Positions 16,871 to 35,575 of a DNA stretch of 64,000 nt are shown piece by piece (position 1 is the first letter of the stretch; every line of letters begins with the position of its first letter). The DNA lies in contig JAFGWM010000081.1 in NCBI GenBank assembly GCA_016937155.1, forward strand, positions 1-64,000, written 5' to 3'. The DNA comes from Deltaproteobacteria bacterium. GTDB lineage: Bacteria; Myxococcota_A; Polyangia; HGW-17. Under the pieces are notes generated by a model that searched no databases, was not told the DNA's origin, and was given only the letters and a program-made list of their open reading frames with translations. A program made the position numbers and the translations under genes.

Positions 16871-17716
16871 CTATTTAGTCTTTTTTACTTTTTTAGTTTT
16901 TTTAACAGGCTTTTTCTTTTTAACGACTTTAGCTTTACGGACTTTTACTTTTTTTGCTTTCTTAACCTTTTTTACCGGTTTCTTTATGGTGCAGCCCATA
17001 AGTGGTTTACTGATAATATTAAAGGAAACCCCATAATTTGCAGTGAAATCTCTTTCAGTTTTCCCGAAAACAAGTTTTTTCATACTGTTTTTAAGACATC
17101 TGAGAGCAGCCCCATTCATCTTGTATTTATGTGAAACCACAGGGTTTGTGGCTTTGCCGTTTTTACCCACTGAAAATGAAAACTCAAAGTGAGAAGTGGA
17201 ATTTTTCCGGGCTCTGAGGTTAGCCTTCAGATAACAGTCAGAGATTATTTTTCCAGAATTAAGAAGTATAGGTTTGATTGTTTTTTCCAGACTTTTATCT
17301 GTACGCATTTCCATCATGTTTGGAGCCACACGGAACACACTTCTGGGAGCAAATTTTACAAAGGCTCTTACTTCAGTACATTTTTTCTGATCCTGATTAT
17401 TTGAAGTTGAACCAAATGAGCAAATTTTCGGAGCGGCACTCATCATTCTGGAAAGTTCACCTCTGATCCTTACTGATTCACGTGTAAGTTCAGCGATTTT
17501 TTTATTGCTGGAGTCAGAATCTCTCTGAAGAGTTCCATTTTCACTTTTTAATGATGCCAGTTGCTTTTCTGTGTCCTGAAGTTTTTTCTCCAGTTCTGCA
17601 GCCCTGCTTTCTGCGGTTTTTGTTTTGAGAACCTGTGCATTGTATGTTCCCTGGGGAACTCCACCACATGCACCCAGTGCAAATATTGAAACCATAACAA
17701 GTATTGATTTTTTCAT
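16871..17716 (-). CDS. Lipoprotein with coiled coil, AgmX-type domain and lysine-rich tail
   Basis: An exported lipoprotein of 281 residues with an intact lipobox (ALGAC). Residues about 35-95 are a coiled coil rich in E, K and L. Residues about 140-235 match the AgmX/PglI C-terminal domain pattern: a conserved Cys near SDCYLKA, then SFSVGKNGKATNPVV, then a second Cys in ALRCLKN. The final 45 residues are almost only K, V, A, P and R, like histone H1 or bacterial DNA- and polyanion-binding tails. GGAGG lies 5 nt upstream of ATG 17716; the longer frame from 17791 has no such site. Function unknown; the tail suggests binding to acidic polymers in the periplasm. Confidence 0.85.
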   Translation of the reverse strand: MKKSILVMVSIFALGACGGVPQGTYNAQVLKTKTAESRAAELEKKLQDTEKQLASLKSENGTLQRDSDSSNKKIAELTRESVRIRGELSRMMSAAPKICSFGSTSNNQDQKKCTEVRAFVKFAPRSVFRVAPNMMEMRTDKSLEKTIKPILLNSGKIISDCYLKANLRARKNSTSHFEFSFSVGKNGKATNPVVSHKYKMNGAALRCLKNSMKKLVFGKTERDFTANYGVSFNIISKPLMGCTIKKPVKKVKKAKKVKVRKAKVVKKKKPVKKTKKVKKTK

Positions 17717-17942
17717 TCTTTCCTCCAAATTGCCGGGCACTTCAGCCCGCAGAATGTTCCGGACACATGCATCCGGGGACAATTTTTTCATTTTAGTGAA
17801 CTTGGATCATCTTGATGAACAGATGACCTCGAACCCAGCAAAAACTATATTTAAATAATATTTCCGCTGAATTTCTGAATACGGAATGCTACATGAAAAA
17901 CAAAAACAGAAAACAAAAAAATGATAGTCAATCTTCAAAAAG

Positions 17943-18245
17943 TTAATGGGACTGAACCCAGGACCATATCCCTATAAAAATAAAAAATAAAATTCCAAAA
18001 AGAGAAATATATAAAAGCACGGGATCAATACCTGTTCTGGAAAGCAATTCCTTTGCAGCTTTTTGATCATATTCTGAAAATTCAGAATCAGACACTATTC
18101 GAGTTGAAATTTCTCTCACTTTTTTGAAATTTCCATTGTTAAAAAAGGATACTGCTTTCATGAGCTCTTCACTACACTCGGAAGAAACTTCTATAATTCC
18201 CTCCGACAGGTTTTTAAACAAACTTATATCTTCTTTTTTTTTCAT
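17943..18245 (-). CDS. Small tail-anchored membrane protein
   Basis: A 100-residue protein. The first 70 residues are helical and charged, resembling one and a half TPR-like helix pairs (AVSFFNNGNFKKVREIS). One membrane helix (about 76-95, LLYISLFGILFFIFIGIWSW) follows near the C-terminus. Start ATG 18245 is preferred over GTG 18254, since AGGTG lies 9 nt before the ATG. It follows the 18251-18922 gene by 5 nt and so belongs to the rplU-rpmA-obg transcription unit. No family recognised. Confidence 0.7.
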   Translation of the reverse strand: MKKKEDISLFKNLSEGIIEVSSECSEELMKAVSFFNNGNFKKVREISTRIVSDSEFSEYDQKAAKELLSRTGIDPVLLYISLFGILFFIFIGIWSWVQSH

Positions 18246-18250
18246 TGCTT

Positions 18251-18922
18251 TCACCTAGGCATCATAAATGGAGCAGGTTTTTCATTTATTCTACTTCTTG
18301 CCCCTAGACCCTGTCCTGTAAGCTCCATTTCAAATTTAGAATCTGAAAATTTAAGCATACCCCATAATTTAACATTCTTATGGTGATACATCTCAACAAT
18401 GTTACCATCGGCATCAACACCTTTTACTTTCAGAGCACCTGGAAAAATACCAGCGCTGGTTCTCACATCCATTTTTCCAACAACTTTAGGTTTTTTCAAA
18501 GGTTTTCTAAAAAGAACAGGAACAATCGAGTCGGGATGCTTCGCCGTGGGAAGTCTCATTGCGTACATTTTTCCGAATTTAACTATTGTTTCCTCGGGAT
18601 CACCCATCTGCTGTCCCGGTTTTCCTTTGAAAAGCATTTTAAGATATATGGTTTTACCTATTCCCTTGAGAGTGACTTCAATCCATGTTTTTCTTCCGGC
18701 ATCCTCACGACCAACAAAAGCAATCCGAATGGAATATTTTTTATTTTTTCTGAGATCTCTGATCTGGTAACTTACCCAGCTACCTATTTTAATTGTTTTT
18801 TCAGGAATTGAACTGAGAATTTTTGTATTATTGGGAACCGGTATCTGTGAAGGCAACGGACCGGATTTACTGCCATATGATACACCCGGGAGAATCAGGA
18901 AAATAACCATCATACGAAACAT
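18251..18922 (-). CDS. Exported protein of unknown function
   Basis: A 223-residue protein with an N-terminal signal peptide (MFRMMVIFLILPGVSYG, cleavage likely after YG; no lipobox). The mature part is predicted mostly beta and is rich in basic residues, with a repeated pattern of short strands, and contains no cysteine. I do not recognise the family. AGGA lies about 7 nt before the ATG. It begins 29 nt after obg on the same strand, and the tail-anchored protein follows 5 nt later, so the two may work together in the envelope. Confidence 0.75.
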   Translation of the reverse strand: MFRMMVIFLILPGVSYGSKSGPLPSQIPVPNNTKILSSIPEKTIKIGSWVSYQIRDLRKNKKYSIRIAFVGREDAGRKTWIEVTLKGIGKTIYLKMLFKGKPGQQMGDPEETIVKFGKMYAMRLPTAKHPDSIVPVLFRKPLKKPKVVGKMDVRTSAGIFPGALKVKGVDADGNIVEMYHHKNVKLWGMLKFSDSKFEMELTGQGLGARSRINEKPAPFMMPR

Positions 18923-18951
18923 TGTGAAATCCTTTCATTCAAGAAAAGCAA

Positions 18952-20004
<1,053 letters not shown>

Positions 20005-20050
20005 CTAAACGGTTTCAATGATATTTCAAAGGGGAAAATTTAAGGATAAA

Positions 20051-20308
20051 TCAGGCGGCGGGTTCCACATGGACTCTTTTTTTATTTTGTCCATAGGATT
20101 CAAAAACTACTGTTCCATCAATAAGTGCAAACAGTGTGTAATCTTTTCCAAGTCCAACATTTCTGCCGGGGTGGATTTTTGTTCCCAATTGTCTGACGAT
20201 AATATTTCCAGCTCTTGCGGCCTGACCACCGAAAAGTTTAATACCTCTTCTTTGACCAGCACTATCACGACCGTTTCTGGTAGAGCCTTGTCCTTTCTTA
20301 TGAGCCAT
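20051..20308 (-). CDS. rpmA: 50S ribosomal protein L27
   Basis: An 85-residue basic protein beginning [16 protein letters not shown], the universal L27 N-terminus that reaches the peptidyl-transferase centre, with the conserved [27 protein letters not shown] compressed in its middle and end. No cleavable N-terminal extension of the Firmicutes type is present. It follows rplU by 13 nt. Confidence 0.97.
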
Positions 20309-20321
20309 AATTCATTCCTCC

Positions 20322-20633
20322 TCAGGCTTTGATACCTGTGATCTGCAGTTCAGTAAAGAGTTGACGATGTCCTTTCTTACTGGCTGAGTCTTTTCTTCTA
20401 CGGTATTTATAAATTATTATCTTACGATCTTTTCCCTGTCTGACGATACGTGCAGAAACACTGGCACCGTTAATTGAGGGTTTCCCTATTTTGATTTCTT
20501 CGCCATTGGAATAAAGAAGAACGTCATCAAGAGTGATCTCACTTCCAGCTTCACCATTAATTTTATTCACACGAACAAAACTGCCGGGCTCAACTTTATA
20601 CTGTCTACCACCGGTTCTAATTACTGCAAACAT
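20322..20633 (-). CDS. rplU: 50S ribosomal protein L21
   Basis: A 103-residue protein with the L21 signature MFAVIRTGGRQYKVEPGSF at the start and KYRRRKDSASKKGHRQLFT near the end, which binds 23S rRNA. Translation starts at 20633, where AAGGAG lies 6 nt upstream; the frame stays open further upstream through the leader. It is the first gene of rplU-rpmA-obg plus two envelope genes. Confidence 0.97.
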   Translation of the reverse strand: MFAVIRTGGRQYKVEPGSFVRVNKINGEAGSEITLDDVLLYSNGEEIKIGKPSINGASVSARIVRQGKDRKIIIYKYRRRKDSASKKGHRQLFTELQITGIKA

Positions 20634-20762: not shown

Positions 20763-23700
20763 TTAAATTTCTTTTTTCTTTTCAGGAATTTTATCTTCTT
20801 CTTCCTTTAAAAGAGTAAATTTTCCATCACGGGTGTACGAATAAAAATAAGTGACCCCATGCTTTAGTTTCAATGGAACTGATGCAACACTGAAATTTTT
20901 CCTCCATAGATCATTGACTATTTTGAGCGATGCAACAGCATCGGGTTCCAGTGGAGCAGTACCTGTTTTAAGAATTCTAACTCTGTAAATCATATCAACA
21001 CGATCGGTTTTTAAAGGAAACATGAACAGACCCAGAGAGCTCTGAGCAACACCGGGGTTATCCCAGCTTAAAACCGGAAGGTCTTCAGGTTTCACTTTTT
21101 TCCGAACAGCCTCATGATAACTGGCGTAGTCCTCTTTATTGGTACTTTGAATAAAAACAGTCCCACGATTTACTTCAAGTACAACATATGATGATCCTTC
21201 CTCTTCAAGAAGGCCATTACGTCTGACCCTTGCTCTTATATGGGATATGTTTTTACCTTTTTTAAGGTACTGATCCTGAATCATGGCAAGGTTCAGTATA
21301 AGCAAGTGCCTTGCAAGAGAATCTCCATTTGAAAGCATAAGTTTTTCAAAAATTCTTAATCCCAGTTCAGTCTCCCCTCTTTTTATTCTGGTCTGTGCTA
21401 ATAGCACTTCGGGTGTGATCTGTCTCGGTAATAGCCATTTCAGTACTTTATAATCACTTAGAGCATCTTCAAAAAGACCATGTCCATAGAAAAAATCTCC
21501 CAGTTTTTTTCTGGTAAGAGGATCATATGGAGCCAGTTCCACCAGAGTGGAAATAACCAGCTTGGATTCATTATCCATTTTGTTTTCCATTAGATATTCA
21601 GCTAAATTGACTCTCTGGCCACTTGTCAGATCTTTTCTCCAAAGCAATCCCTGAACAAGTGAAGAGGAAAGATCTTTTCTGGAAGCCTTTGAAGTTGCCT
21701 GAATATACATGAGAGTCAATTCAACACTGTCTTTTTCAAGTCTGTGGAATTTTGCTATGAGTTCCATGCGTTTCAGACTTTTTTCCTGAGTATTTAACTT
21801 TTTGAATTCTTTATCATTATCTAGTTTAACAAGCTCTTTTTTAACAGCACCTACAAGAGCACTTCCCCCAAGATTAAAGTGTCTTGCCACCAGAAAAGAG
21901 TCCTGAACTGATTTAATACTTCTGAATATCTTTTCCTTCACATAATTTTTAACAACCCATCCCTGATCAGATATAAGAGATGCAAAGGCAAGCCTGTTAG
22001 ACATATTGAGTTTGTCCAATATAACGTCCAGTAAAGCTTTTTTGGATATCCAGTCACTGATTTCACAGGCATTAAGTGCTTTTCTGAATACCTGTTCGGC
22101 AGTGTAACTTCTTGGACTGTATCCAAGAGCTGATAACCAGGATCTTCTTCTGACTTCAATGTATGATCTGGAAATTTTGCTGCATTTTACCGGAACAATC
22201 TGTCCGGTACTTTTAAAACTGTATATATGACGAAAAACAAGGTTTTCATTTCCGGATGGCATTGCCACCAGATCAGGCATTAGTTTCAATGCTCTGTCTA
22301 TACACTTTAAAACATCCTGATCTGTAATGGTTGTTGAGTAAAGTTTAAACTGCTTAATTCTTCCTGATGGCTCCACCTCAAATTCATAAGTGGCACTTCC
22401 ACCTGCACTGGGCATAAAAAGTGCTTTCCTGTTATAACAATCAACAACAGCTTCTTTTCTGCTTTTTTCATTCAAAAGTCTGCTGTAATAAAATGACATA
22501 TTGAAAATACCTGAGTTTGCCTGAATATCAGGAAGTGAAAGTCCGGTTATCTCTGAAGGAGGACGATTCTGAATCATTCTGAAGTGGAATGCCCTCACTG
22601 ATGGCAACTCGCTGAAAAGTGCACTGGAGAGTCTTATGGAAGATCCCACAACACCGGTTGTAACAAAATGCATGGCTGTCAGAGGCGTAACCAGCTTATT
22701 TTCCATTGCAAAGGATGAAACACTGAGTTTCCCGCTACCCTGGGAGATAAGATCATCCACTCTGGAATAAGCCCACATTCTTTCAATAATTTCACTGTCA
22801 CTGCTGTGACTGATTTTCAGAGGAAGCCGCGTGCTGAATTTTTTACCCTTTATCCATCCCTGAATCTCAAAATCCTTGGGAACCGGTTTGGAAATAAATC
22901 CACTTACATAATGGGTCTGATTTATTCCGAGTGTAGGATTAACCACAGGTGTAATTTTGGAGGCTTTATTTCCTAGTAGAACTCTTACTTCCTTGAAGCT
23001 TGATGCAGCTGTTTCCTCAATAACTCCATTTATAATACCGGTCATTTTTCTAACTGTTGATGCAGTATAGACTTTTCCAAGAACATCAAGAGAAGTGCCA
23101 CCATGATTTTCACCAAGAATAATTCCTCTGAAAACCGGTGGAGGATCAGTTATTGACATAAACGTTTTTAAATCTTCACCGAGCATGGCGCCCCTTGAGG
23201 GATTACCATCACCGATATATAGAATTGTTCCTTCTCCGCCGGGTATAACAACTGCTGCTTTTTCCAGAGCTTTTCCAAGATCTGTTGCACCACCCGGTAC
23301 CATTCTTGATAGATTTTCAGAAAGTTTTTTTATTCTTTCGGAACTTACAGATGCAAGTCCAGCACCATCAAGAGGTATTATGTCATTTCTTAAAACGTAT
23401 ACTGCAAGTTTATCGGAGGATCTGAACTTTTCCAGAACACTTGCAAATCCAGTTTTTAGCATCTGGATTTTTCCGCTGTCCAGTGATGCACTCAGATCAA
23501 GAAGCATCACCATATTCACTCCATCATTGGAAACATTTCCCACATTAAGTTTAGAGGCAATCTGGGACATCGGTATACTCAGCATAAAGGGAACTTTATC
23601 CTTACCTTTTCGGGGTAGTTCCATAAGAACCTGAGACTGCTCATCCGGGTAGATTTCAGCTACAAAATCACTGCCCGGTGTGAAATCATTACGTCGGATG

Positions 23701-24842
23701 ATCATACGTCTCTTTTCAAATATTCCCCCCCAGCCGCTTCTAAGTTTTGCACCAGTTTCCTCAATCCTCATAGAAAGCTCAAAATCACCTGATCTCTGCC
23801 CCCCCTTCATCAGGTAGGAATATAGTCGTCTGCCCTTCTCCTCCGGAAGCTTCTGTGCGTACTTAATAGTTAGTTCCACTTCTGAACTTGGTGGAAGTGA
23901 TTTAAGTTCAGCACCGAAATTACCACCCCCAAGCATATAAAAACTTTCATCAGTATAGCCGTTGGTTTCTTCCTGCACCTGACTGAGATATCCACTGCTT
24001 ACAGTACTTCCCTTGCGAAGTTCAACTTCCAGAATTGAAGCATCAACTGGAAGCTGTACCCTGTATTCACCATCCCTCGTGTAACTCACCGGATTAAAAA
24101 ATGTCTGCTTTATTTCGGTGATGGCAACCCTTTTCTTTATTCTCACACTTACTGAATGCTTCCTTAGAATCAACGCATTGACTCCAACATTTCCTGAATT
24201 TTTCCCTTTTAAAATACCGTATCCTGCACCACTCACCATAGGTCTTGAAAAACCACCAGTCCAATCAACCCACAGTTCATTTTCCACTTTTAAGGGTCCC
24301 TTGTCGGTAAGTTCAAAAGTACCACCCTTAAGTTGAACAGGTTTTTTGGCCATTACATTCACCTCACCACGAAGGTGATGAATGAAATATCTTCCTTTTC
24401 TTATTTCAACATCAAATGCGCCATTTCTTGACTCAAGCAGATAGGAACCGGCTCTGATTTTTATATTTTTGTCGCGTTTGACTTCCAGCCATATACGTCC
24501 TGATTTAAGTGAAACACTGTCAGTGTCAGCAATAATGGATGTTTGATTATCGAGAAGTATATTTCCCCCATCATCAAGTCTCAGCCAACCGTGAGCTGTT
24601 GTTGAAATAACAGTTTTTTCACCAACCCTTGAAATACTGTCCGTATTAAAATTTCCAATTCTGGCATTCACACCCATGGGATCAAAAGTTGCGATGCTTT
24701 TTTCAAACCTGACTCTCGGAGCATTGGCAACAGATGATTTTGAACGGTTTACTTCGTTATCAGGCAGTTTTCCACAACTTAATGTGGTTGCAGCCATAAA
24801 AAAAGTTGCCAGCAGTGTATTTTTCATAGTGGCCTCTTTCAT
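20763..24842 (-). CDS. Giant FecR/VIT/vWA/AgmX-like lipoprotein (paralogue B)
   Basis: A 1359-residue lipoprotein (lipobox TTLSC, Cys23). In order I see a FecR-like beta domain (about 70-165), a VIT domain (about 220-330, ITEIKQTFFNPVSYTRDGEY), a vWA domain (about 440-600) with an intact metal site DLSAS (449-453) and a later G-G-A-T-D-L stretch, an AgmX/PglI-like domain (about 795-875, two Cys, EFEVEPSGRIKQF), a helical-repeat region (about 900-1230) and a beta-rich C-terminal segment. VIT-vWA proteins usually bind other proteins at the surface. The start overlaps the upstream paralogue stop (ATGA) and has AGGTG 7 nt before it; ATG 24827 with GAGG is an alternative. Function unknown. Confidence 0.88.
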   Translation of the reverse strand: MKEATMKNTLLATFFMAATTLSCGKLPDNEVNRSKSSVANAPRVRFEKSIATFDPMGVNARIGNFNTDSISRVGEKTVISTTAHGWLRLDDGGNILLDNQTSIIADTDSVSLKSGRIWLEVKRDKNIKIRAGSYLLESRNGAFDVEIRKGRYFIHHLRGEVNVMAKKPVQLKGGTFELTDKGPLKVENELWVDWTGGFSRPMVSGAGYGILKGKNSGNVGVNALILRKHSVSVRIKKRVAITEIKQTFFNPVSYTRDGEYRVQLPVDASILEVELRKGSTVSSGYLSQVQEETNGYTDESFYMLGGGNFGAELKSLPPSSEVELTIKYAQKLPEEKGRRLYSYLMKGGQRSGDFELSMRIEETGAKLRSGWGGIFEKRRMIIRRNDFTPGSDFVAEIYPDEQSQVLMELPRKGKDKVPFMLSIPMSQIASKLNVGNVSNDGVNMVMLLDLSASLDSGKIQMLKTGFASVLEKFRSSDKLAVYVLRNDIIPLDGAGLASVSSERIKKLSENLSRMVPGGATDLGKALEKAAVVIPGGEGTILYIGDGNPSRGAMLGEDLKTFMSITDPPPVFRGIILGENHGGTSLDVLGKVYTASTVRKMTGIINGVIEETAASSFKEVRVLLGNKASKITPVVNPTLGINQTHYVSGFISKPVPKDFEIQGWIKGKKFSTRLPLKISHSSDSEIIERMWAYSRVDDLISQGSGKLSVSSFAMENKLVTPLTAMHFVTTGVVGSSIRLSSALFSELPSVRAFHFRMIQNRPPSEITGLSLPDIQANSGIFNMSFYYSRLLNEKSRKEAVVDCYNRKALFMPSAGGSATYEFEVEPSGRIKQFKLYSTTITDQDVLKCIDRALKLMPDLVAMPSGNENLVFRHIYSFKSTGQIVPVKCSKISRSYIEVRRRSWLSALGYSPRSYTAEQVFRKALNACEISDWISKKALLDVILDKLNMSNRLAFASLISDQGWVVKNYVKEKIFRSIKSVQDSFLVARHFNLGGSALVGAVKKELVKLDNDKEFKKLNTQEKSLKRMELIAKFHRLEKDSVELTLMYIQATSKASRKDLSSSLVQGLLWRKDLTSGQRVNLAEYLMENKMDNESKLVISTLVELAPYDPLTRKKLGDFFYGHGLFEDALSDYKVLKWLLPRQITPEVLLAQTRIKRGETELGLRIFEKLMLSNGDSLARHLLILNLAMIQDQYLKKGKNISHIRARVRRNGLLEEEGSSYVVLEVNRGTVFIQSTNKEDYASYHEAVRKKVKPEDLPVLSWDNPGVAQSSLGLFMFPLKTDRVDMIYRVRILKTGTAPLEPDAVASLKIVNDLWRKNFSVASVPLKLKHGVTYFYSYTRDGKFTLLKEEEDKIPEKKKEI

Positions 24843-27800
24843 TTCAATTCACCTTTGGTAAGTGTAAGTTTATATTCCGATTTAGCAGAATCAAATTTAA
24901 GTTGACGAATAATAATCTTCTCAGTTGGTTTCCCTTCGTTTAAAATTATGGTCAACTGTGCGTTCACAGGATTTCTAGCGGTTTTAGAAGTTCTGCTAAC
25001 CCTGAGATGTATAACATCCGGAAGTTTTGATGAAATAACACCCTCTACTCCCCAGCCCGGTTTAAGGAATGGAACCCTTAACATGTTCTCTTCTGAAATA
25101 CCCCAAGTGAATTCCAGATCACTTCTTGGATGCAGATAACTTAAAATAATTTTCTGGGATTCATCATTACGATACAGTGCCATTGAAGTACCCCTGTCAT
25201 GAATTCCAGAGTGATTTTTATTTTTTCCAGCTAAAAGCATACCCGCAAGATGCCTTGATGCAACTATTCTAGCTGTTTTCACGATATCACTTCCGGGCTC
25301 ACTCTTTGTCAGAATTTCTTCTATCAGCCCCAGAGATTTCTCGTGTTCTCCACTGTATTCATATGCCATTGCAAGCAGCAGTTTTGATTCACTTGAACCG
25401 GCACTGAGACTCATCAGAGATGTTAATTCTCTAACAGCGAGTTTGTACCACCCATAAGCCATATAGAGAGTACCAAGAATCCTTCTGCGCTGAGGATTTG
25501 AAGGTGCAAATTCAACAAGTTCACTTAAAAGCCTTCTGGCATTCTTTGTGTCACCGTTTCTTATGAGATATTCAGCAGTTTCCAGTCTTAACTCTTCATC
25601 AAGCATTGGATTTCCATAAAATTCAGAAATCAGGTTCTTTGCTCTGATCTTCATTTTTTTGTCTTCGAAAATATTCAATAGAAGAATTTTCAGCCAGCTG
25701 TCGCTCTTGTTGGATTTAATTAATTTTTTTAGAACCATTATTTTTTTCTCGGCTGAAGTTTCCTTTTCAAGAATATCCATTATTTTGGTTCTTGAAGTGG
25801 TCTGACTAAGCCCAAGGGATGCTCTGACTTTAAGAAGTTCCTGAACTGTTTTAATTCTTGCAAGAATTGCACTTTTCAAAAATGCACTGTATCCATATGA
25901 AGGCACGAATCTTCTGTAAAATCTTAAAAGATTATTCACATCAGGCAGCATTGAAATACTAAGCCTGAGAAAAACCATTTTTGAATGAGGACTGGGGAGT
26001 TCACATAGTTTTCTGGCGTCATTATAAACTTCTATAATAGAATTGATCCCCCTCGCTCCAATTCTTTCCTTCCATAAATTTCTGCGTTGCCATAAAGGAA
26101 GTTTTGAAGCAGCACTACAGGGATCAGGCTTTCTCTGAAAATTACAGTCTCTGCAGAAAAAGAGATTGTATGTATTATATGTATTTCCTCTGGAAGTCGG
26201 GAAAATCTGTGAACCAGAACCACCAAAGCCTGTAACAGCGGGTGAAACTGATTTTGCATAGCCTGTCACTTTTTTTGTATTGGAAAACATCCACAACTGA
26301 GTCATTCGAACTTTCCCTTTTTCCGGTCGGGGATACTTCCACGTCATCGCTCTGGAACATATACAGTTACCAAGTTTTTTGTGAAAACTCATAAATGGCT
26401 TACAACTTATCACTCTGCCCCTTGCAAGTACCATTTTAACACCGACACTACCCGCTAATAATTCATTTTCCATCAGAACTTTCTGATAACAGTGATGAAC
26501 CTCTCTGCGATGTGCTCTTGTAACAGCCCATACTTCATTCCTGTCAATTTTTCCAATCACTGTTGGCGGCATGCTTCTCACTCTGACATTGAAGTTATAT
26601 CCTCCCATTGAACCAAATCGTCCACCAAGACCCCCACCGCCGCCAATTCCAATACCAGAATCAGCACTCATGACTGATCTGTCATCAATTTTCAGGGATG
26701 AAGATGGTTTTTTCGTTCTGGCATTGAATTTTGCGGCAGGAATTTCAGCAGGCATATTTTTGTTATCAAATACACCCGATAATTTTCCTCCCTTTTGCTG
26801 ACCATATCCCTGTCCGGATGATGTCGAATCTGAGTAGACTCTGGAAGTTCCTCTGTGCGATCTTCGGGGACTTCTCTTTGCCTTCTTCTCCGACTTGTAG
26901 ATACTTCCTCCACTGGATAAAGTACCTGTGGGTGCTGCACCTTCATTTTCCTGGGAAAAACTTTTCAGCAATTTCTCTCTACGAACTGATTTGTCTCTTT
27001 TGGGTTCAGCAGCAAAATCCTTGTTTTTCTCTGTCAGGGCTACAGATTTTTCTTCATCCTTTTCGAGATTTCTGGAATCATCCTCTTTATCCTCAAGATT
27101 AAGCCCCATTTCCTGTGCTTCCTTTAATGTTGGGACATAAAGACTGGTATAGGGTGTCACTATTTCAAAACGCATACCGAGATCAAGAATCTCTTCACCA
27201 CTGGCCCCTGCGAGCTGCAGAGCCTTAAGTTCTTCATTAGCCCATCTTCTGGCTATTTCACGAACATCAGTAAATCTATTCCATTCAACACTGAAGGTCC
27301 TGCTCCATGGTCTGGAATCCTTCTCACCCTTCAGAATTATAGATGAGGGAAGTTTGCCACCAGTCATTTTACCGCTTACATTTAAAACTTTCCCTGCTTC
27401 ATACAGAATTTCATCCTTGGGGAAAAATTTGCCGACATTGCCGTTCAGTGAAACCGAAAGATTATGTATCCTCGGTTTTCTGAAATCATTAATGAAAGAT
27501 GGCAGCTCTCTTAATACCCCAACTTCACTGAGTAAAAGAGGGGAAACATCCTGACTGAGACGTTTTAATACTTCAAGTCCCTCACCATCAGAAGTTGCAA
27601 TAGCTCTGAAACCTATATTGTAAGGCAGTTGATGCCACTTTTCTGCAAGACTTTCAGGTTTTAACTCCCCAACGGTGGGTTTACCATTCCCGATATAAAG
27701 CAGTATCCCTGCTCTTGCCTGATTTTCAGATGGAAAAAGTTTTCCCGCCTGAGTGATAAGTTCCAGTATATCAGTAGCTCCACCCTTTTTCTCACGGGCA

Positions 27801-29371
27801 AGTTTTTCCAAAATACCTACTGGATCCGATTTGCCTGCCTCCAGAAACTGTATATTTGATTCCCTCAACCCGAGATCTCCGCTGACTATTGCCATTCGAT
27901 CCCCTTTTCTCAGTGTTGACACAGCCGTTTCAACAGCCAGTCTGGCCAGTGATATCTGACTTCTGGTTGTGTCAGCACTGAAGTCAACCACCATAAGAAG
28001 ATCAACATTTCTGGACTTTTCTTCTGAAACACTCAGGGGATAAAGTCTCGCGAAGAAATAATCTCCACGTTTGATGGAATCACCCTTCCTCCCAGCGGGT
28101 CTTGTATACCAGCCCGAAGAGGTGGTACCCTCCATCCCATCATCCTCCAGTTGCAGATTGAAATCACTTGTACTGATAAAATCAGTTGCCTTAAGCTCAA
28201 GTAAAGTACCATCAGGAGTCACCCCCAGATTAGCTTTGGCAAATCTCGCACGGCTCTGACTGAGATCAACTGTGAGATCAAGTTCTCCGTATTCTGGTGA
28301 GCGGTTGTCATTTCCCACAAGTGGAAGATGGTATGATCTGTGGTTTCTTGTTTCTCCACTGCGTTCCATCCATGTTGTATAGCGAATAAGAACTTTTCTT
28401 TTTTCCCCTGCTTTTATCGGATAAATAAATGCTCTGTACCTGCGGCCTTCCTCATGTTCCAGCAATGCAGGATCTTCAGTGGAACCGGCATATACATTAC
28501 TCTGATACTGTATTTTTGCGAGGGTTTTACCTTTAATGATTCCATAAACAAGTTTACCCTGACGATCAACAGCAAACCCGTTTATCATAGCCCCTTTAGG
28601 TGCTTCAAAACGATATATACCTTCAAGAGTATCTCTAGTGGGATTGTAAAATTCCTGAGTAATTGTTGTAACTGCAAGATCCCCAACAACTTCCACATTT
28701 ATTTTCATGGAATTAATCAGAAGAGGCAAATGTGCCTTACCTTTTGTTCCTGCCCTTCTTGCCCCTAAAACCCCCTGTCCGGGCACAAGATTATTCTCAT
28801 CATCTTCTTCCCACTGACTTTCACCGTTACCCGGCTCCCACCATTTAATAGGCTTGATACTGGGAGAAGGTAGTAAAAACAGTGCATTTCCTTCTTTTAC
28901 AAGAAATCGTTTTCCATCCTTTTCAGCTAAAAGTTCACCTCTGAAAACATTCATGGAAGATCGTTCGCCATTGACCAATTGAATGCTACTGCCCTTGGCA
29001 CGAAGCTTCCAGCCTTTCCATGATGTTTCACCCATAAACGAAGCGGGAAAATCAATTACGGCACTTCCCCCTGTAATTACCGCCATATCTTTTTTTATCA
29101 GGGTTTTGGAAACACTATCAAGGTGAATAACCACACCATTTTCATGTGTAATTTCAGCCTCGCCATCACCTGTACTTACTATTTCCCCGTCAACTGACAA
29201 CCATCTGCCGGTGATTGCTTTCACAGGATTTCCGCGAAAAACATCTCCTCTCAAAACCCTTACCGAAGAGTAAGTCCTTGAAAAATTTTCCAGATTAAAG
29301 TTACTTCCCTCTTTTTCCTGAGAACACCCAGCAAAAAAAAGTATGGATAAAAGCAGTGTCAATCTTCTCAT
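24839..29371 (-). CDS. Giant FecR/VIT/vWA/AgmX/TPR lipoprotein (paralogue A)
   Basis: A 1510-residue lipoprotein (lipobox FAGC). It has the same architecture as its neighbour: FecR-like domain (about 45-160), VIT domain (about 210-340, TTITQEFYNPTRDTLEG), vWA domain (about 455-630), a long low-complexity basic and Gly-rich linker (about 770-940), an AgmX-like domain (about 955-1030), a CRDC-containing segment and TPR-like helices (about 1240-1360). The vWA metal motif reads DFSAD, with Asp replacing the last Ser of DxSxS. GGAGG lies 5 nt before ATG 29371. It is translationally coupled to paralogue B, so the pair is probably made in a fixed ratio. The sequences have diverged well beyond a recent duplication. 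Confidence 0.88.
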   Translation of the reverse strand: MRRLTLLLSILFFAGCSQEKEGSNFNLENFSRTYSSVRVLRGDVFRGNPVKAITGRWLSVDGEIVSTGDGEAEITHENGVVIHLDSVSKTLIKKDMAVITGGSAVIDFPASFMGETSWKGWKLRAKGSSIQLVNGERSSMNVFRGELLAEKDGKRFLVKEGNALFLLPSPSIKPIKWWEPGNGESQWEEDDENNLVPGQGVLGARRAGTKGKAHLPLLINSMKINVEVVGDLAVTTITQEFYNPTRDTLEGIYRFEAPKGAMINGFAVDRQGKLVYGIIKGKTLAKIQYQSNVYAGSTEDPALLEHEEGRRYRAFIYPIKAGEKRKVLIRYTTWMERSGETRNHRSYHLPLVGNDNRSPEYGELDLTVDLSQSRARFAKANLGVTPDGTLLELKATDFISTSDFNLQLEDDGMEGTTSSGWYTRPAGRKGDSIKRGDYFFARLYPLSVSEEKSRNVDLLMVVDFSADTTRSQISLARLAVETAVSTLRKGDRMAIVSGDLGLRESNIQFLEAGKSDPVGILEKLAREKKGGATDILELITQAGKLFPSENQARAGILLYIGNGKPTVGELKPESLAEKWHQLPYNIGFRAIATSDGEGLEVLKRLSQDVSPLLLSEVGVLRELPSFINDFRKPRIHNLSVSLNGNVGKFFPKDEILYEAGKVLNVSGKMTGGKLPSSIILKGEKDSRPWSRTFSVEWNRFTDVREIARRWANEELKALQLAGASGEEILDLGMRFEIVTPYTSLYVPTLKEAQEMGLNLEDKEDDSRNLEKDEEKSVALTEKNKDFAAEPKRDKSVRREKLLKSFSQENEGAAPTGTLSSGGSIYKSEKKAKRSPRRSHRGTSRVYSDSTSSGQGYGQQKGGKLSGVFDNKNMPAEIPAAKFNARTKKPSSSLKIDDRSVMSADSGIGIGGGGGLGGRFGSMGGYNFNVRVRSMPPTVIGKIDRNEVWAVTRAHRREVHHCYQKVLMENELLAGSVGVKMVLARGRVISCKPFMSFHKKLGNCICSRAMTWKYPRPEKGKVRMTQLWMFSNTKKVTGYAKSVSPAVTGFGGSGSQIFPTSRGNTYNTYNLFFCRDCNFQRKPDPCSAASKLPLWQRRNLWKERIGARGINSIIEVYNDARKLCELPSPHSKMVFLRLSISMLPDVNNLLRFYRRFVPSYGYSAFLKSAILARIKTVQELLKVRASLGLSQTTSRTKIMDILEKETSAEKKIMVLKKLIKSNKSDSWLKILLLNIFEDKKMKIRAKNLISEFYGNPMLDEELRLETAEYLIRNGDTKNARRLLSELVEFAPSNPQRRRILGTLYMAYGWYKLAVRELTSLMSLSAGSSESKLLLAMAYEYSGEHEKSLGLIEEILTKSEPGSDIVKTARIVASRHLAGMLLAGKNKNHSGIHDRGTSMALYRNDESQKIILSYLHPRSDLEFTWGISEENMLRVPFLKPGWGVEGVISSKLPDVIHLRVSRTSKTARNPVNAQLTIILNEGKPTEKIIIRQLKFDSAKSEYKLTLTKGELK

Positions 29372-29560
29372 ATCAGCCTCCCACGGCATTACTCAAATCA
29401 GTGTTATACAGACGGCATTGTATTATCATTGTTATTCATATTCAACTGCAATATTCAAAAGTTCTGCTCTATTGGGTATACTCATGTATTCCATGCGGCA
29501 AAACCGTACGAAACTTCAGTACTCCCCGGTATACATTATCAGCGAAACTAAAAAACCATC

Positions 29561-30419: not shown

Positions 30420-30521
30420 GATCTGTTATGATTTAATAATCATATCATACTGTTTTCACAGATTTTTTCTCAATTAATGTTTTCCTTAAAAAGTTCGATG
30501 ATAAGGGGCAGGTGTAGTGAA

Positions 30522-31316
30522 ATGTCAATAATAAAACAATTTACCGGCTATGGATATGACCGGACAAAATTTCAGAAGGAAGCATCAAAAAGTATAACAA
30601 GAGAGCTCTTAAGGACATATTCCAGAACTGATCTAAGAGAGCTTCCATCAGTTACAATCCACCAGTACAAAACAGATATAAATTCCACTGTATCAATCAA
30701 CAATACATCCAGAAAACTCAATGATTATCTTCGTCAGGGTAATGATAAACTTTCAGGGCTGCAGACAGCTCAACAGGCTTTGGACAGTATAGAAGAAAAA
30801 CTCAGTACTATGCTGAAATATATGTCGTCGGAAAACGCCGATCCTGAAGTATTTTCAAAAATTACATCAGAAGGTTTTCAGGAGATTGATAATATTCTCA
30901 GGGAATCATCTTATAATGGTCAAGTCGTTTTTCAGAAAGAAATTCAAGGCAGTGAACCGCTGATAGCAAATCGCGTTGAACTGTTTTCTTCAGATGAATT
31001 CAGCATTGAAGCAAAAAACGGTCTTTCCATGGATTCTGTGAAGGATCAGATACATTCCAGAGCTGTCATACAGCAGGCTATAGAAAAAATAAACGGGGAA
31101 AGACAGAATTTAAATACCAGTATTGATTCAGTTTCCAGTAAACTGAGTGAGGTACTGGTAAGAAATGAGGCCATGTTTGGGGCATCAATGGATCATTTCG
31201 ATCTGCAACTGATGAGTCAAAACTACGAGGCGGCAAAATTCCAGATTCTGTCAAATCCAGGAAATCTTGTTGAAATCCACAATTTTTCAACACAGGCTCT
31301 AGATTCTCTTGTATGA
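30522..31316 (+). CDS. Flagellin-like protein, divergent and isolated
   Basis: A 264-residue protein built like a short flagellin. The middle of the N-terminal half, GLQTAQQALDSIEEKL followed by EIDNILRESSYNGQVVF, matches the flagellin D1 helix and the NxTxFNG region. The C-terminal half contains AIEKINGERQNLNTSI and a long helix, like the flagellin C-terminal D0/D1. The extreme ends are poorly conserved: no LGLL-type terminus, and the first 40 residues are atypical. No other flagellar gene is in the window. AGGTG lies 7 nt before ATG 30522. It could be a hook-junction or filament-like protein of another function, or a decaying flagellin. Confidence 0.68.
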   Translation: MSIIKQFTGYGYDRTKFQKEASKSITRELLRTYSRTDLRELPSVTIHQYKTDINSTVSINNTSRKLNDYLRQGNDKLSGLQTAQQALDSIEEKLSTMLKYMSSENADPEVFSKITSEGFQEIDNILRESSYNGQVVFQKEIQGSEPLIANRVELFSSDEFSIEAKNGLSMDSVKDQIHSRAVIQQAIEKINGERQNLNTSIDSVSSKLSEVLVRNEAMFGASMDHFDLQLMSQNYEAAKFQILSNPGNLVEIHNFSTQALDSLV

Positions 31317-31326
31317 TTAATAAAAA

Positions 31327-33261
31327 TTAAAACGGTGCAATATCAAAAGATTCAGACCAATCGATAAAAACAGTATCTTCATAGCTTTCAGTAACTCTGA
31401 AAACCATGCCTGATTCAACCAGATCGCATCCACTGCAGCTTGTAATCCTTGCAACATCAGTGGAATCCGTTGTGTAAAGACCTGTGGCAACTGGTAAGTC
31501 TTCATCTGAAGCATCTGCAGCGTATACTGCGAACTGTGCATCGGTTAAATCCTCCAGAGAACCATCTGATACGGTCAAAAGGAAATCAGCCCCGTCAGGT
31601 ATAAATGTATTAATTTCGTATTCTGCTGGAGAAGCCCACCAGTTGTAACCGTAGTGCAGCCATCTGGTGTCTGAGAGAAACAGAATATATTCCTCAGGAT
31701 ATTCTGTGATATAGGTAATATTCCATTTTCCACCGGGAGGAGGCGCTGCCATCCCAAGCAGAATATCTCCAGCAGTGAAATCACCACTTGAATCAGTATC
31801 CGTGTAATAAACAGGAAGTATAAGCACCTGACGTATTACATTTCCACTTCCCAGATCTATGACCTGAGCCCAATCGGAAATTGTCTGTTCATCGAGAACA
31901 TCACCCAGATCCGGAATTTCATTTTCCCATGCAGGTGTTGCCCCGGATTCCACATCAGATATCATCTGACTTGATGATGAATCCAGGAGAACAAGGAAAG
32001 GATTCCCGGATTCGGCAGCCGTTATCAAATCAGGGAAACTGACAGCGTAAAAACCAATTCTTTTTCCGGAGTGCTGAGTATCATTTACAGTTCCAGAAAC
32101 TGTCATATTTCTAACTGGAGCATTTAATACCATCATATCAAGAGACAAAGAATTTTCTTCCCAGTCAATAAATACCGGTGAATCTGATAGCTCTTCCATA
32201 AGACTCCAACCACTGACAGGCGCATTTTCAGGATCGTCCGGTCCAATAAACACTGGAGTTCCCCCTGTTGTCTTGGCAGCAACATAATATTCTCCATCGG
32301 AAAAAATTCCATCTTCATTCAGATCATCAAAAACAAGGGGAATCATTACTGTAGCTGTACCCCCGTCTATATCAAAACGCCAGTTTTCAGGGCTTACAAC
32401 CGGCAGATAAAGAGACCACGTATCACTATCATCTGAAAAATCTACGGGATCGATATTATCTAGATATCCAAGTACATCCAAAGCACCCGTACCTATATTT
32501 ATCGCTACTGCGGTAACAGTGGGATGCAGCATATAAGCAAAACTTTCGTCCAGATTTATACTTCCACCTATTTCAGGACCAGCATTCAAAAAACTCACAG
32601 AAAACTGTTCGAAAATGCCTGTAACTTCTACATTTATGTCCATATATCCGGTGTAGGAACTCTGAGCCGATGTTATTACAATACCTTCAGAGTCAGTGGT
32701 CAGTTCAGTGTCATTCAGGGTTAAATCGTTTTCTGTTGAAAGGATTACTTCAGCTCCTTCAACAGCGCCTTCAGAATCACTGATAAGTATTGAAATATTA
32801 AAGGTTGCTCCTGTGACGTCAAACTCCTTTTCAGAAATTTCCATACTGACAGAGAGATTAAATGAAACAGTAACATTATTTTCAAGTTGAATACTGTTCT
32901 CTGTTATTCCACCCTCGGTGCTGGAAACAAAGGCATCAAAAGTCACATCTGCAATATGCTGCGAATATACCCTTATGGCAGCTTTACCTTCAATATCTGT
33001 TGCCACATCATCTGAAAATTCCACGCTGGTTGCATCCGAAGTCTGAAGACTCACATATCTTCCTGCAAGAGGATTACCATCCTCGTCATTTACAGTTACA
33101 GTAATATCTGTGTAGAGTTTTTGCTCATTAACATCGAATAAAACACCTGTTGATTCAATAGTTGATTCAGAAGGACTCACCTTGGCACTGCTCGAACTCG
33201 TCGAATCATCGCATGCAAGAGCTGTAAAAAGAACTACAAATAAAAGTATATATTTCCTCAT
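31327..33261 (-). CDS. Surface lipoprotein with bacterial Ig-like repeats
   Basis: A 644-residue lipoprotein (lipobox LTALAC, followed by DDSTSSSS). The N-terminal 220 residues contain two Big_1/invasin-like Ig modules with the characteristic VNDEDGNPLAGRYVSLQT and DSEGAVEGAEVILST turns. The remaining 400 residues are acidic, beta-rich and aromatic, with no recognised domain. Asp after the lipid Cys may affect sorting under the E. coli +2 rule, but the rule differs between lineages. GAGGAG lies 9 nt upstream. It converges with the flagellin-like gene with 10 nt between stops. Likely an envelope adhesin or structural protein. Confidence 0.82.
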   Translation of the reverse strand: MRKYILLFVVLFTALACDDSTSSSSAKVSPSESTIESTGVLFDVNEQKLYTDITVTVNDEDGNPLAGRYVSLQTSDATSVEFSDDVATDIEGKAAIRVYSQHIADVTFDAFVSSTEGGITENSIQLENNVTVSFNLSVSMEISEKEFDVTGATFNISILISDSEGAVEGAEVILSTENDLTLNDTELTTDSEGIVITSAQSSYTGYMDINVEVTGIFEQFSVSFLNAGPEIGGSINLDESFAYMLHPTVTAVAINIGTGALDVLGYLDNIDPVDFSDDSDTWSLYLPVVSPENWRFDIDGGTATVMIPLVFDDLNEDGIFSDGEYYVAAKTTGGTPVFIGPDDPENAPVSGWSLMEELSDSPVFIDWEENSLSLDMMVLNAPVRNMTVSGTVNDTQHSGKRIGFYAVSFPDLITAAESGNPFLVLLDSSSSQMISDVESGATPAWENEIPDLGDVLDEQTISDWAQVIDLGSGNVIRQVLILPVYYTDTDSSGDFTAGDILLGMAAPPPGGKWNITYITEYPEEYILFLSDTRWLHYGYNWWASPAEYEINTFIPDGADFLLTVSDGSLEDLTDAQFAVYAADASDEDLPVATGLYTTDSTDVARITSCSGCDLVESGMVFRVTESYEDTVFIDWSESFDIAPF

Positions 33262-33410
33262 TTTTCATTTCTCCTCTTTGTCCTCTTTTTAGCACATATC
33301 TTCAGTTAAACAAGAACAGGAAATTAATCAGAATGTTTATAAACTCTTCATTACAGAAAATTCCAGAAGAACAATCTGTATAAACCATGAGAAACAGAAA
33401 AAATCACAAA

Positions 33411-35447
33411 TCAGTATTTTGCAACTCTGAAACCCATTGAGTTATATTTTGTTTCGGGAGTCACGTAAAACTGATGAGCCGGTGCGCACATGTTTGCGTC
33501 GTTGTCATATGGTCCTCCCTTAACTTTTCTGTAGTATCCTGATACAGGACCTCTGTAATCATTCAAAGTTCCTGAAGGATAAGTGGCATGATAATCCCAG
33601 ATGAATTCCATTATATTTCCGCTCATATCATAAATACCAATCTGGTTGGGCAGCTTACTTTTGACACTAGCAGTTTTGTATTCGCTGTTCATATTATAGA
33701 CAGCATAATCACCAATTGAGTTTGTTCCATCGTAGCCGGCAAATGGTTTGAAAATATCATCTTCTTCTCCAAGCGCAGCCCATATCCACTCCATCTCAGT
33801 CGGAAGACGATAACCATCTGCATTCCAGTTTGCTGACACAGCATTCCATGTGGAGTTCGAGGTGGTGGGGATATCTCCATATGTCAGAGTTGAAAAATCA
33901 ACTCCACTTATGGAGTACACAGGGGTGAGCCCTTCATGGATACTTAATTTATTACAAAACGCGATTGCATGATACCAGTTTACCATCTGGACCGGATCAG
34001 TAATACCATTGGAAACTGAAGTATTTGATGGATCAGTGCCAAAGATAAAACTAAACTGTTCACGTGTGATTTCTGTTTCACTTATTTTAAATGCAGAAAC
34101 CACACTTACATTAGCCGGTTCGGAATCCCTTTGAAATGATCCCCCATTCACATCAATCATGGTTAGGAGATAATTACATCCGTTGTATTCCAGCGTACAA
34201 CTTCCTGAACATGCAAGATTTCCATTAAAATAACCGAAATCAGAACAGTTCATCCCTCCCATATTTGATAAGTCACATTCTTCATAGGAAGTTTGAATAT
34301 CACCATCACCACAGTATCCGATTCCCTCACAGTTACTCTCATCAAAACTACAGTCTTCATTACAACCTAAGTTTCCTGTATAAAAACCAAGATCCATGCA
34401 ACTGGTTCCATTGAGGTTTGTTCCTTCACATTCCTCATAAGAAGTCTGCAGTATTCCATCTCCGCATCTTCCTTCTTCCACACAATTACTCAAATCTATT
34501 TCACATGAATTACAGATGAGATCGCCACCGTGATATCCGAAATCCCCACAGGTCTGACCCTGAAAATCAGTATTATCACACTCTTCATTATAACTAACCT
34601 GTACTACGCCATCTCCACAGATTCCTTCACTCATACAGTCACTCAAATCAAATTTGCAGACTGAATTACATCCAAGTTCTCCACCATGATATCCCAAATC
34701 TCCACAGGTCTTATTGGATAAATTCAAACCGTCACATTCTTCGCTGTAGGTAGATTGGATTTCACCATCTCCACAAATTCCTACACAACCTGATATATCA
34801 AGATGACAGTTGGTACACTTGAGCATTCCACTGTAATATCCTTCGGATAAACATGTATTATCACCCAGATTACCTATTTCACAATCTTCACCTTCTTCCA
34901 CCACCCCGTTTCCACAACTTATCAGGACACATTCAGAAAGATCATATTTACAGGAGTCAGTACAACCGACATGTTCACCGACATTAAAACCATCAAACAT
35001 ACCACAGTTGGTTTTTCCACCGAGATCTTCCCCGTCACATTCTTCACCTTCATCTATCTCGCCATTACCACATACCTTCTCACACATGGATAAATCATAG
35101 CGACAGGAAGAGCCGCAACTGACCTGTGCATCACCGGTATATCCCGTGTGATCACCGCATACCGGGGAATCACCTAAATTATTGGTGTCACATTCTTCAC
35201 TTCCCTGAATAATACCGTCTCCACAGATTCCTTCACACTGAGAATAATCTATTTTGCAGCTATCACTGCAAAGCGTCAGGGAATTACCATAATATCCCTC
35301 TTCGGCACAACTGGGCATTACTCCAGCTGCGGGATCACATTCCTCGCCAATATCAATCGTCCCATTTCCACAGTTGTTATCTGTTCCGCCATCATCACAG
35401 GAAATCACAGCAACAGACAATAAAATACAGATAAGCAGTTTTTTCAT
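33411..35447 (-). CDS. Lipoprotein with eight disulfide repeats and an FGE-sulfatase domain
   Basis: A 678-residue exported lipoprotein (VISC). After the signal come eight Cys-rich repeats of about 45-50 residues with the pattern CGDG-x(4-8)-EECD, then G-Y/F-x-G, C-x2-3-C and D-x-S-x-C, the type common in myxobacteria. The C-terminal about 230 residues are a formylglycine-generating-enzyme-like (SUMF1) fold: ISETEITREQFSFIFG, VNWYHAIAFCNKLS, YRLPTEMEWIWAAL, GIYDMSGNIMEFIWD and GFRVAKY. In bacteria this fold is often a binding module rather than an enzyme, and the active-site Cys pair is not clear here. The start at 35447 has a GGAGGGG Shine-Dalgarno; the frame from 35540 runs through the promoter. 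Confidence 0.9.
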   Translation of the reverse strand: MKKLLICILLSVAVISCDDGGTDNNCGNGTIDIGEECDPAAGVMPSCAEEGYYGNSLTLCSDSCKIDYSQCEGICGDGIIQGSEECDTNNLGDSPVCGDHTGYTGDAQVSCGSSCRYDLSMCEKVCGNGEIDEGEECDGEDLGGKTNCGMFDGFNVGEHVGCTDSCKYDLSECVLISCGNGVVEEGEDCEIGNLGDNTCLSEGYYSGMLKCTNCHLDISGCVGICGDGEIQSTYSEECDGLNLSNKTCGDLGYHGGELGCNSVCKFDLSDCMSEGICGDGVVQVSYNEECDNTDFQGQTCGDFGYHGGDLICNSCEIDLSNCVEEGRCGDGILQTSYEECEGTNLNGTSCMDLGFYTGNLGCNEDCSFDESNCEGIGYCGDGDIQTSYEECDLSNMGGMNCSDFGYFNGNLACSGSCTLEYNGCNYLLTMIDVNGGSFQRDSEPANVSVVSAFKISETEITREQFSFIFGTDPSNTSVSNGITDPVQMVNWYHAIAFCNKLSIHEGLTPVYSISGVDFSTLTYGDIPTTSNSTWNAVSANWNADGYRLPTEMEWIWAALGEEDDIFKPFAGYDGTNSIGDYAVYNMNSEYKTASVKSKLPNQIGIYDMSGNIMEFIWDYHATYPSGTLNDYRGPVSGYYRKVKGGPYDNDANMCAPAHQFYVTPETKYNSMGFRVAKY

Positions 35448-35495
35448 AATACCCCTCCATATACCCCGAAATGAGTTAGAGCCCGATAGAATGGT

Positions 35496-35524
35496 ATTGT
35501 AGCTTACACTAATAATATTAGCAA
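35496..35524 (-). promoter_or_regulatory. Promoter of the disulfide-repeat lipoprotein
   Basis: On the minus strand, TTGCTA (35524-35519), a 17-nt spacer and TACAAT (35501-35496). Transcription would begin near 35489, leaving a leader of about 42 nt before ATG 35447 and ruling out the upstream in-frame start. Confidence 0.7.
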
Positions 35525-35575
35525 AGAGTTTTTCTTCCACTTCCGGAGAAACTAATTAATTGAATAATCATTAAT

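Follow-up and report, generated by a model that had tools for sequence, protein, structure and literature searches.

Inter-alpha-inhibitor holds two homologous heavy chains side by side, and dimers of its human heavy chain 1 (HC1, ITIH1; PDB 6fpy, 6fpz) depend on Mg2+ and on a metal-filled metal ion-dependent adhesion site (MIDAS) (PMC7170535). Archaeal ArnAB (PDB 8s05), the counterpart of the Sec23/24 core, contains a vWA and beta-sandwich core within a two-protein complex, as does Sec23/24 itself. In the gliding machine of Myxococcus, the AgmX/PglI C-terminal (TonB_C-like) domain (NF033768) ends the transmembrane proteins GltG/PglI and GltJ/AgmX, which have a cytoplasmic FHA or zinc-finger part. 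This study concerns two giant lipoprotein genes, P1 and P2, that lie in tandem on the minus strand of a 64,000-nucleotide stretch of a deltaproteobacterial genome (assembly GCA_016937155.1, contig JAFGWM010000081.1, positions 1 to 64,000), hereafter the window. The parts of these proteins are known; their assembly is so far undescribed. Our results indicate that P1 and P2 are an old, recurring pair, which we tentatively read as the two subunits of an envelope complex.

P1 is found directly upstream in 48 of the 48 P2s with readable upstream DNA, and P2 directly downstream in 45 of the 47 P1s with room for it; the tandem was seen in 42 loci holding both kinds of gene. Of the two P1s that have no adjacent P2, one (L027:7037-11656) comes from a genome that has, on contigs other than this one, a further P1 as well as a P2, and the other (L057:2176-6702) from a genome with a pair on another contig (L087). 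The family set comprised 115 homologues of more than 1000 amino acids, gathered by related-locus and whole-genome searches. Their tree, made by a quick method, unrooted and with some long rows unsure, places the upstream genes in one clan of 54 and groups the 50 downstream genes together (SH-aLRT 88-90); 11 unpaired relatives, from Nannocystaceae among others, fall on the side of the upstream genes. A phylum scan, in which 284 Myxococcota genomes were searched with a profile built from the signature region of the solenoid, found both copies 3.9-4.2 kb apart in 21 genomes from six families, and the related-locus search added two further families. The window proteins are themselves paralogues, 23% identical across 568 columns (E 3e-18). 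The pairing is thus real and old and stems from a single duplication, and P1 and P2 look like an obligate two-gene unit.

AlphaFold2 models, built from alignments of 51 (P1) and 43 (P2) sequences, predict that the core of each protein is a complete inter-alpha-inhibitor heavy-chain-like fold. The P1 model (residues 34-753, mean predicted local distance difference test score (pLDDT) 85.2) begins with an all-beta FecR-like domain, and in the P2 model (residues 193-1354, mean pLDDT 84.5) the core is followed by an alpha/beta AgmX-like domain, a long solenoid and a beta-rich C-terminus. For both models the top Foldseek match is ITIH1 (6fpy), over about 590 columns (P1, E 4.1e-29, TMt 0.60; P2, E 6.0e-25, TMt 0.62). 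Both contain the VIT-containing beta sandwich, the hybrid domain and the inserted vWA that define the fold class, together with the return helices and strands, and the human heavy chains also come as homologous pairs (PMC7170535). The resemblance has clear bounds, however: identity to ITIH1 is only 13-15%, neither bikunin nor a hyaluronan system accompanies P1 and P2, and P1 is without a canonical MIDAS. Both proteins also go beyond ITIH1 in having a membrane anchor and a FecR, a TonB_C-like, a solenoid and a C-terminal beta domain. The next matches were ArnAB for both models, over only about 355 aligned columns and, like Sec23/24, smaller and cytoplasmic, and integrin beta chains for the P1 model. 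Matches of the P2 model to the aminopeptidase N fold (TM about 0.1) were dismissed as noise.

The two proteins share the order FecR-like, VIT, vWA, AgmX/TonB_C-like, helical solenoid and C-terminal beta domain, with the following positions in the window.

24839..29371, minus strand: P1, the upstream gene, a 1510-residue lipoprotein (open reading frame (ORF), lipobox, Shine-Dalgarno sequence)
28838..29272, minus strand: P1 FecR-like domain, N-terminal and all-beta, about residues 34-178 (model; Pfam FecR in 8 of 16 P1 homologues, sub-threshold in the window P1)
28379..28717, minus strand: P1 VIT domain, residues 219-331, with the motif DPALLE (Pfam VIT, E 2.6e-21; motif in 53 of 54 P1s)
27512..27997, minus strand: P1 vWA domain, about residues 459-620 (homologue scans; fold match to 6fpy)
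27971-27985, minus strand: P1 MIDAS-like motif DFSAD, without the second serine (sequence)
26285..26548, minus strand: P1 AgmX/PglI (TonB_C-like) domain, residues 942-1029 (NF033768, 48.3 bits, cut-off 40; 52% identity to the copy in a GltG-like paralogue)
25232..26128, minus strand: P1 helical/TPR solenoid with two conserved cysteines, the family signature region, limits approximate (homologue scans, profile)
24842..25162, minus strand: P1 C-terminal domain with an HPxxDLEL motif, limits approximate (alignment; the P2 counterpart is beta-rich in the model)
20763..24827, minus strand: P2, the downstream gene, a 1354-residue lipoprotein (ORF, lipobox, Shine-Dalgarno sequence; alternative start at 24842)
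24360..24605, minus strand: P2 FecR domain, residues 75-156 (Pfam FecR, 26.7 bits, cut-off 24)
23859..24167, minus strand: P2 VIT domain, residues 221-323, DPALLE lost (Pfam VIT, 34.2 bits, E 3.2e-8)
23028..23516, minus strand: P2 vWA domain, about residues 438-600 (homologue scans; fold match to 6fpy)
23484-23498, minus strand: P2 intact MIDAS start, DLSAS (sequence)
22215..22499, minus strand: P2 AgmX/TonB_C-like domain, about residues 777-871 (NF033768, 35.6 bits; alpha-alpha-beta-beta-alpha-beta in the model)
21201..22178, minus strand: P2 helical solenoid, about residues 884-1209 (model, pLDDT mostly 80-93)
20796..21191, minus strand: P2 C-terminal beta-rich domain, about residues 1213-1344 (model)

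In the Pfam/NCBIfam scan of the window pair, FecR exceeded its cut-off in P2 only, TPR did so in P1, vWA stayed below cut-off in both, and NF033768 was over its cut-off in P1 and just under it in P2. These weak calls were accepted because homologue scans and structure models agree with them: among 31 members scanned, VIT was found in 31, AgmX in 25 and FecR in 21, the last including 13 of 15 P2 homologues. TIGR03788, the marine proteobacterial sortase target with VIT-vWA, matched the VIT region in 31 of 31 scanned members; the window proteins nevertheless score only 69.2 (P1) and 36.9 bits (P2) against its cut-off of 551.65, and no sortase signal was noted. The HPxxDLEL motif had raised the suspicion that the C-terminal domain is DUF2135, a match that full-length Pfam scans did not give.

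An earlier, sequence-only reading of this DNA had described tandem giant lipoproteins with the order FecR-like, VIT, vWA, AgmX-like and helical repeats, and much of it is borne out. The ORFs, 24839-29389(-) and 20763-24842(-), are intact, the domain order is common to both proteins, and the pair recurs far beyond chance; conserved pairing, named beforehand as the test that could refute the claim, gave the strongly positive result set out above. Both proteins are lipoproteins by their lipoboxes (FAGC in P1, TLSC in P2), and its statement that no system with this combination had been described agrees with our failure to find a curated family in the Pfam/NCBIfam scans, or a paper on the pair in literature searches. 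The AgmX-like domain, claimed for both proteins, is indeed present in the window P1 and P2; it is not common to the P1 family as a whole. Neither the complete heavy-chain-like core nor the anti-sigma-like relatives described below figured in that reading.

After the duplication P1 and P2 specialised in opposite directions. The VIT motif DPALLE, kept in nearly all P1s, is also present in 11 of 11 unpaired relatives and has been lost from the P2s. The first Asp and first Ser of the MIDAS are invariant in all 115 homologues, whereas the second serine occurs in 23 of 50 P2s and in none of the 54 P1s. In the window, P2 has the T and D of the MIDAS motif (DxSxS, T, D) in addition to DLSAS, and P1 has an Asn at the place of the later Asp. 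Covariation of MIDAS partners between P1 and P2 was tabulated and set aside as confounded by phylogeny. The AgmX-like domain was detected in 50 of 50 P2s by a model trained on them and, independently, by NF033768 in 15 of 15 P2 homologues (E<0.01); it occurs in 27 of 54 P1s and in 0 of 11 unpaired relatives. The copy in the window P1 resembles that of the GltG-like protein encoded in the same genome (L116:6386-8557) and has no significant match in the P1 of a sister genus, the remainder of which is 59% identical. These comparisons suggest that the domain was probably acquired from the GltG-like paralogue by a recent replacement, which would therefore have little bearing on the function of the pair.

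The N-termini of the family bear on where the pair acts. A lipobox cysteine was seen by inspection in 51 of 51 readable P1 N-termini (39 by a strict pattern) and in 33 of 48 readable P2 N-termini. The remaining 15 P2s, which form one Polyangiaceae-rich clade including that of Minicystis rosea, begin instead with a hydrophobic segment devoid of cysteine, apparently an inner-membrane anchor. That one kind of anchor takes the place of the other among the P2s is easiest to explain if P2 acts in the periplasm, and the sequences point to a periplasmic P2. The second MIDAS serine is present in all 15 helix-anchored P2s as against 8 of the 35 others, the 15 being a single clade and not independent events.

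We therefore propose, at somewhat less than even confidence, that P1 and P2 together make up a two-subunit envelope complex of Polyangia that is anchored in the membrane, lies mainly in the periplasm and serves as an adhesive or sensing scaffold. The two would be diverged copies of one ancestral protein made of FecR, heavy-chain-like (VIT-vWA) and solenoid parts. As human HC1 forms dimers by way of a metal-filled MIDAS and, in inter-alpha-inhibitor, has a homologous heavy chain as its neighbour, a P1-P2 heteromer is a reasonable inference; the subunits may bind each other through the heavy-chain-like heads, the solenoids or both, with the P2 MIDAS as one possible contact by analogy with the human dimer. 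The lipid anchor of P1 would hold one side, while P2, lipid- or helix-anchored and with its constant TonB_C-like domain, would dock to a partner or to a second layer of the envelope, so that the complex would tie envelope layers together or capture a ligand and would not be a motor. A more specific, integrin-like form of the proposal, in which MIDAS-defective and MIDAS-competent subunits bridge the inner and outer membranes and the P2 MIDAS closes on either P1 or a ligand common to both, seems to us unlikely. If the complex is real, a class of social and predatory bacteria would possess an undescribed two-subunit envelope assembly with a heavy-chain fold resembling integrin beta chains, and a TonB_C-like domain would be able to function inside a lipoprotein. 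The presence of the pair in the complete genome of a named species, M. rosea, provides concrete genes with which to probe the function of bacterial VIT-vWA proteins.

Several points weigh against this proposal. Location was deduced from N-terminal sequence alone, and lipoproteins can be exposed at the cell surface. Contact through a canonical MIDAS cannot be the general rule, as 27 of 50 P2s do not have the second MIDAS serine. The two P1s without an adjacent P2 imply that P1 may work by itself or with a partner supplied in trans; no third conserved neighbour accompanies the pair across families, beyond local clades; and many genomes of the window's class do without the pair, which is thus not generally essential to the envelope.

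The main rival, to which we give only a low probability, is an extracytoplasmic sensor, in which the FecR, VIT and vWA domains recognise a ligand in the envelope or outside the cell and a further partner carries the signal to a regulator in the cytoplasm. FecR proteins and anti-sigma factors relay signals to cytoplasmic regulators, and the frequency of FecR among the P2s would fit such a role. Further support comes from relatives of about 1280 amino acids in seven genomes (L037, L121, L122, L123, L124, L126 and L127), each adjoining an extracytoplasmic function (ECF) sigma factor gene. They join an N-terminal membrane segment to a homologous FecR-VIT-vWA module (about 25% identity to P1; L037 copy at L037:5749-10138), and a zinc-anti-sigma-like HxxxCxxC motif is present in six of the seven, that is, in all whose N-terminus is readable in one frame, that of L123 being split off by a frame change. 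They are possibly giant anti-sigma sensors, and a sensor origin of the module is therefore possible. Unlike P1 and P2, however, they are unpaired and have a cytoplasmic anti-sigma-like head as well as the neighbouring sigma gene; lipid-anchored P1 and P2 are devoid of any cytoplasmic domain, neither a cytoplasmic anti-sigma part nor a linked ECF sigma gene was found in or beside P1 and P2, no sigma or regulator gene recurs next to the pair, and no relative of this kind was found in the window's genome. It is rather less probable that P1 and P2 are independent, surface-exposed lipoproteins for adhesion or capture of prey, matrix or mineral, akin to the cell-surface location that the sequence-only reading had entertained. 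The vWA and VIT modules of secreted proteins are usually adhesive, and the window holds neighbouring lipoproteins with Ig-like and DUF4215 repeats. Against this stand the obligate pairing, the helix in place of a lipobox in one P2 clade, which argues for the periplasm, and the strong conservation of the pair, whereas surface adhesins would be expected to turn over rapidly.

Least probable of all is a proton-driven surface machine, for gliding or another purpose, that couples a vWA adhesin (as CglB) to an AgmX-like force coupler (as GltG/GltJ), towards which the sequence-only reading had taken the AgmX-like domain as a hint. That domain is found in all P2s and half of the P1s, and the genome encodes GltG-like (236 and 152 bits, cut-off 650) and GltJ-like proteins (139 bits, cut-off 450), all far under the curated cut-offs. 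The hint is not supported, as the domain is missing from the other half of the P1s and from every unpaired relative, and the window P1 copy, so close to that of the GltG-like paralogue, looks newly acquired. It also lies here in the middle of lipoproteins with VIT-vWA and a solenoid, and the GltG model scores only 51.7 bits on the window pair, in a match confined to the AgmX-like domain. Motor genes are not linked to the pair, and inspection of the N-termini found no TonB-type SHLS/His motif shared among the 15 helix-anchored P2s; the window P1 and P2, as lipoproteins, differ from the N-terminal-helix force transducers TonB and TolA. The class-restricted distribution weakens the reading further, the family being nearly absent elsewhere (a single genome among those sampled from other classes) and so not common to those classes. 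The GltJ-like gene lies near pilM, pilN, pilO and pilP (G000:C85; L115:7573-14102).

The homologues are almost all from Myxococcota, namely Polyangiaceae, Sandaracinaceae and further lineages, and the relatives within the window's class include Nannocystaceae-type proteins. Strong profile matches (E < 1e-28) were obtained in 31 of the 284 genomes of the phylum scan, of which 30 belong to the same class as the window; the remaining matches, all weak (E > 1e-7), can most probably be put down to noise from TPRs. The family thus seems largely confined to that class, apparently Polyangia. A same-genus relative of the window's genome is the Myxococcota metagenome-assembled genome 'Old_saline.mb.39', whose 20314-base contig (L043) yields the same ORFs as G001 contig C183.

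The likely start of P1 is the ATG at 29371, preceded by GGAGG, and that of P2 the ATG at 24827, preceded by AAGAGG. An alternative in-frame ATG of P2 at 24842 overlaps the P1 stop codon (ATGA), so that the genes are separated by 11 nucleotides or overlap by 4, and translational coupling is plausible. Downstream of the pair, three genomes from the family to which the window belongs (window 16871-20633 (-), L023 and L025) have rplU, rpmA, obgE and genes for a 223-residue secreted protein and a protein of about 100 residues; rplU, rpmA and obgE are retained in L026, and a coiled-coil lipoprotein whose tail is weakly AgmX-like (24 bits) also follows in L023 and the window. An operon function shared with these ribosomal genes was rejected, as outside the window's family they do not come after the pair. 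A promoter-like site, TTGACA-16-TATTCT, precedes rplU, such sites being no more frequent overall than the background rate. On the other side of the pair, window 30477-31316 (+) encodes a 279-residue protein showing a weak match (21 bits against a cut-off of 26.6) to the flagellin N-terminus, and window 31327-35540 (-) encodes two putative lipoproteins, one with Ig-like Big_1/invasin repeats and the other with DUF4215 repeats and an FGE-sulfatase domain.

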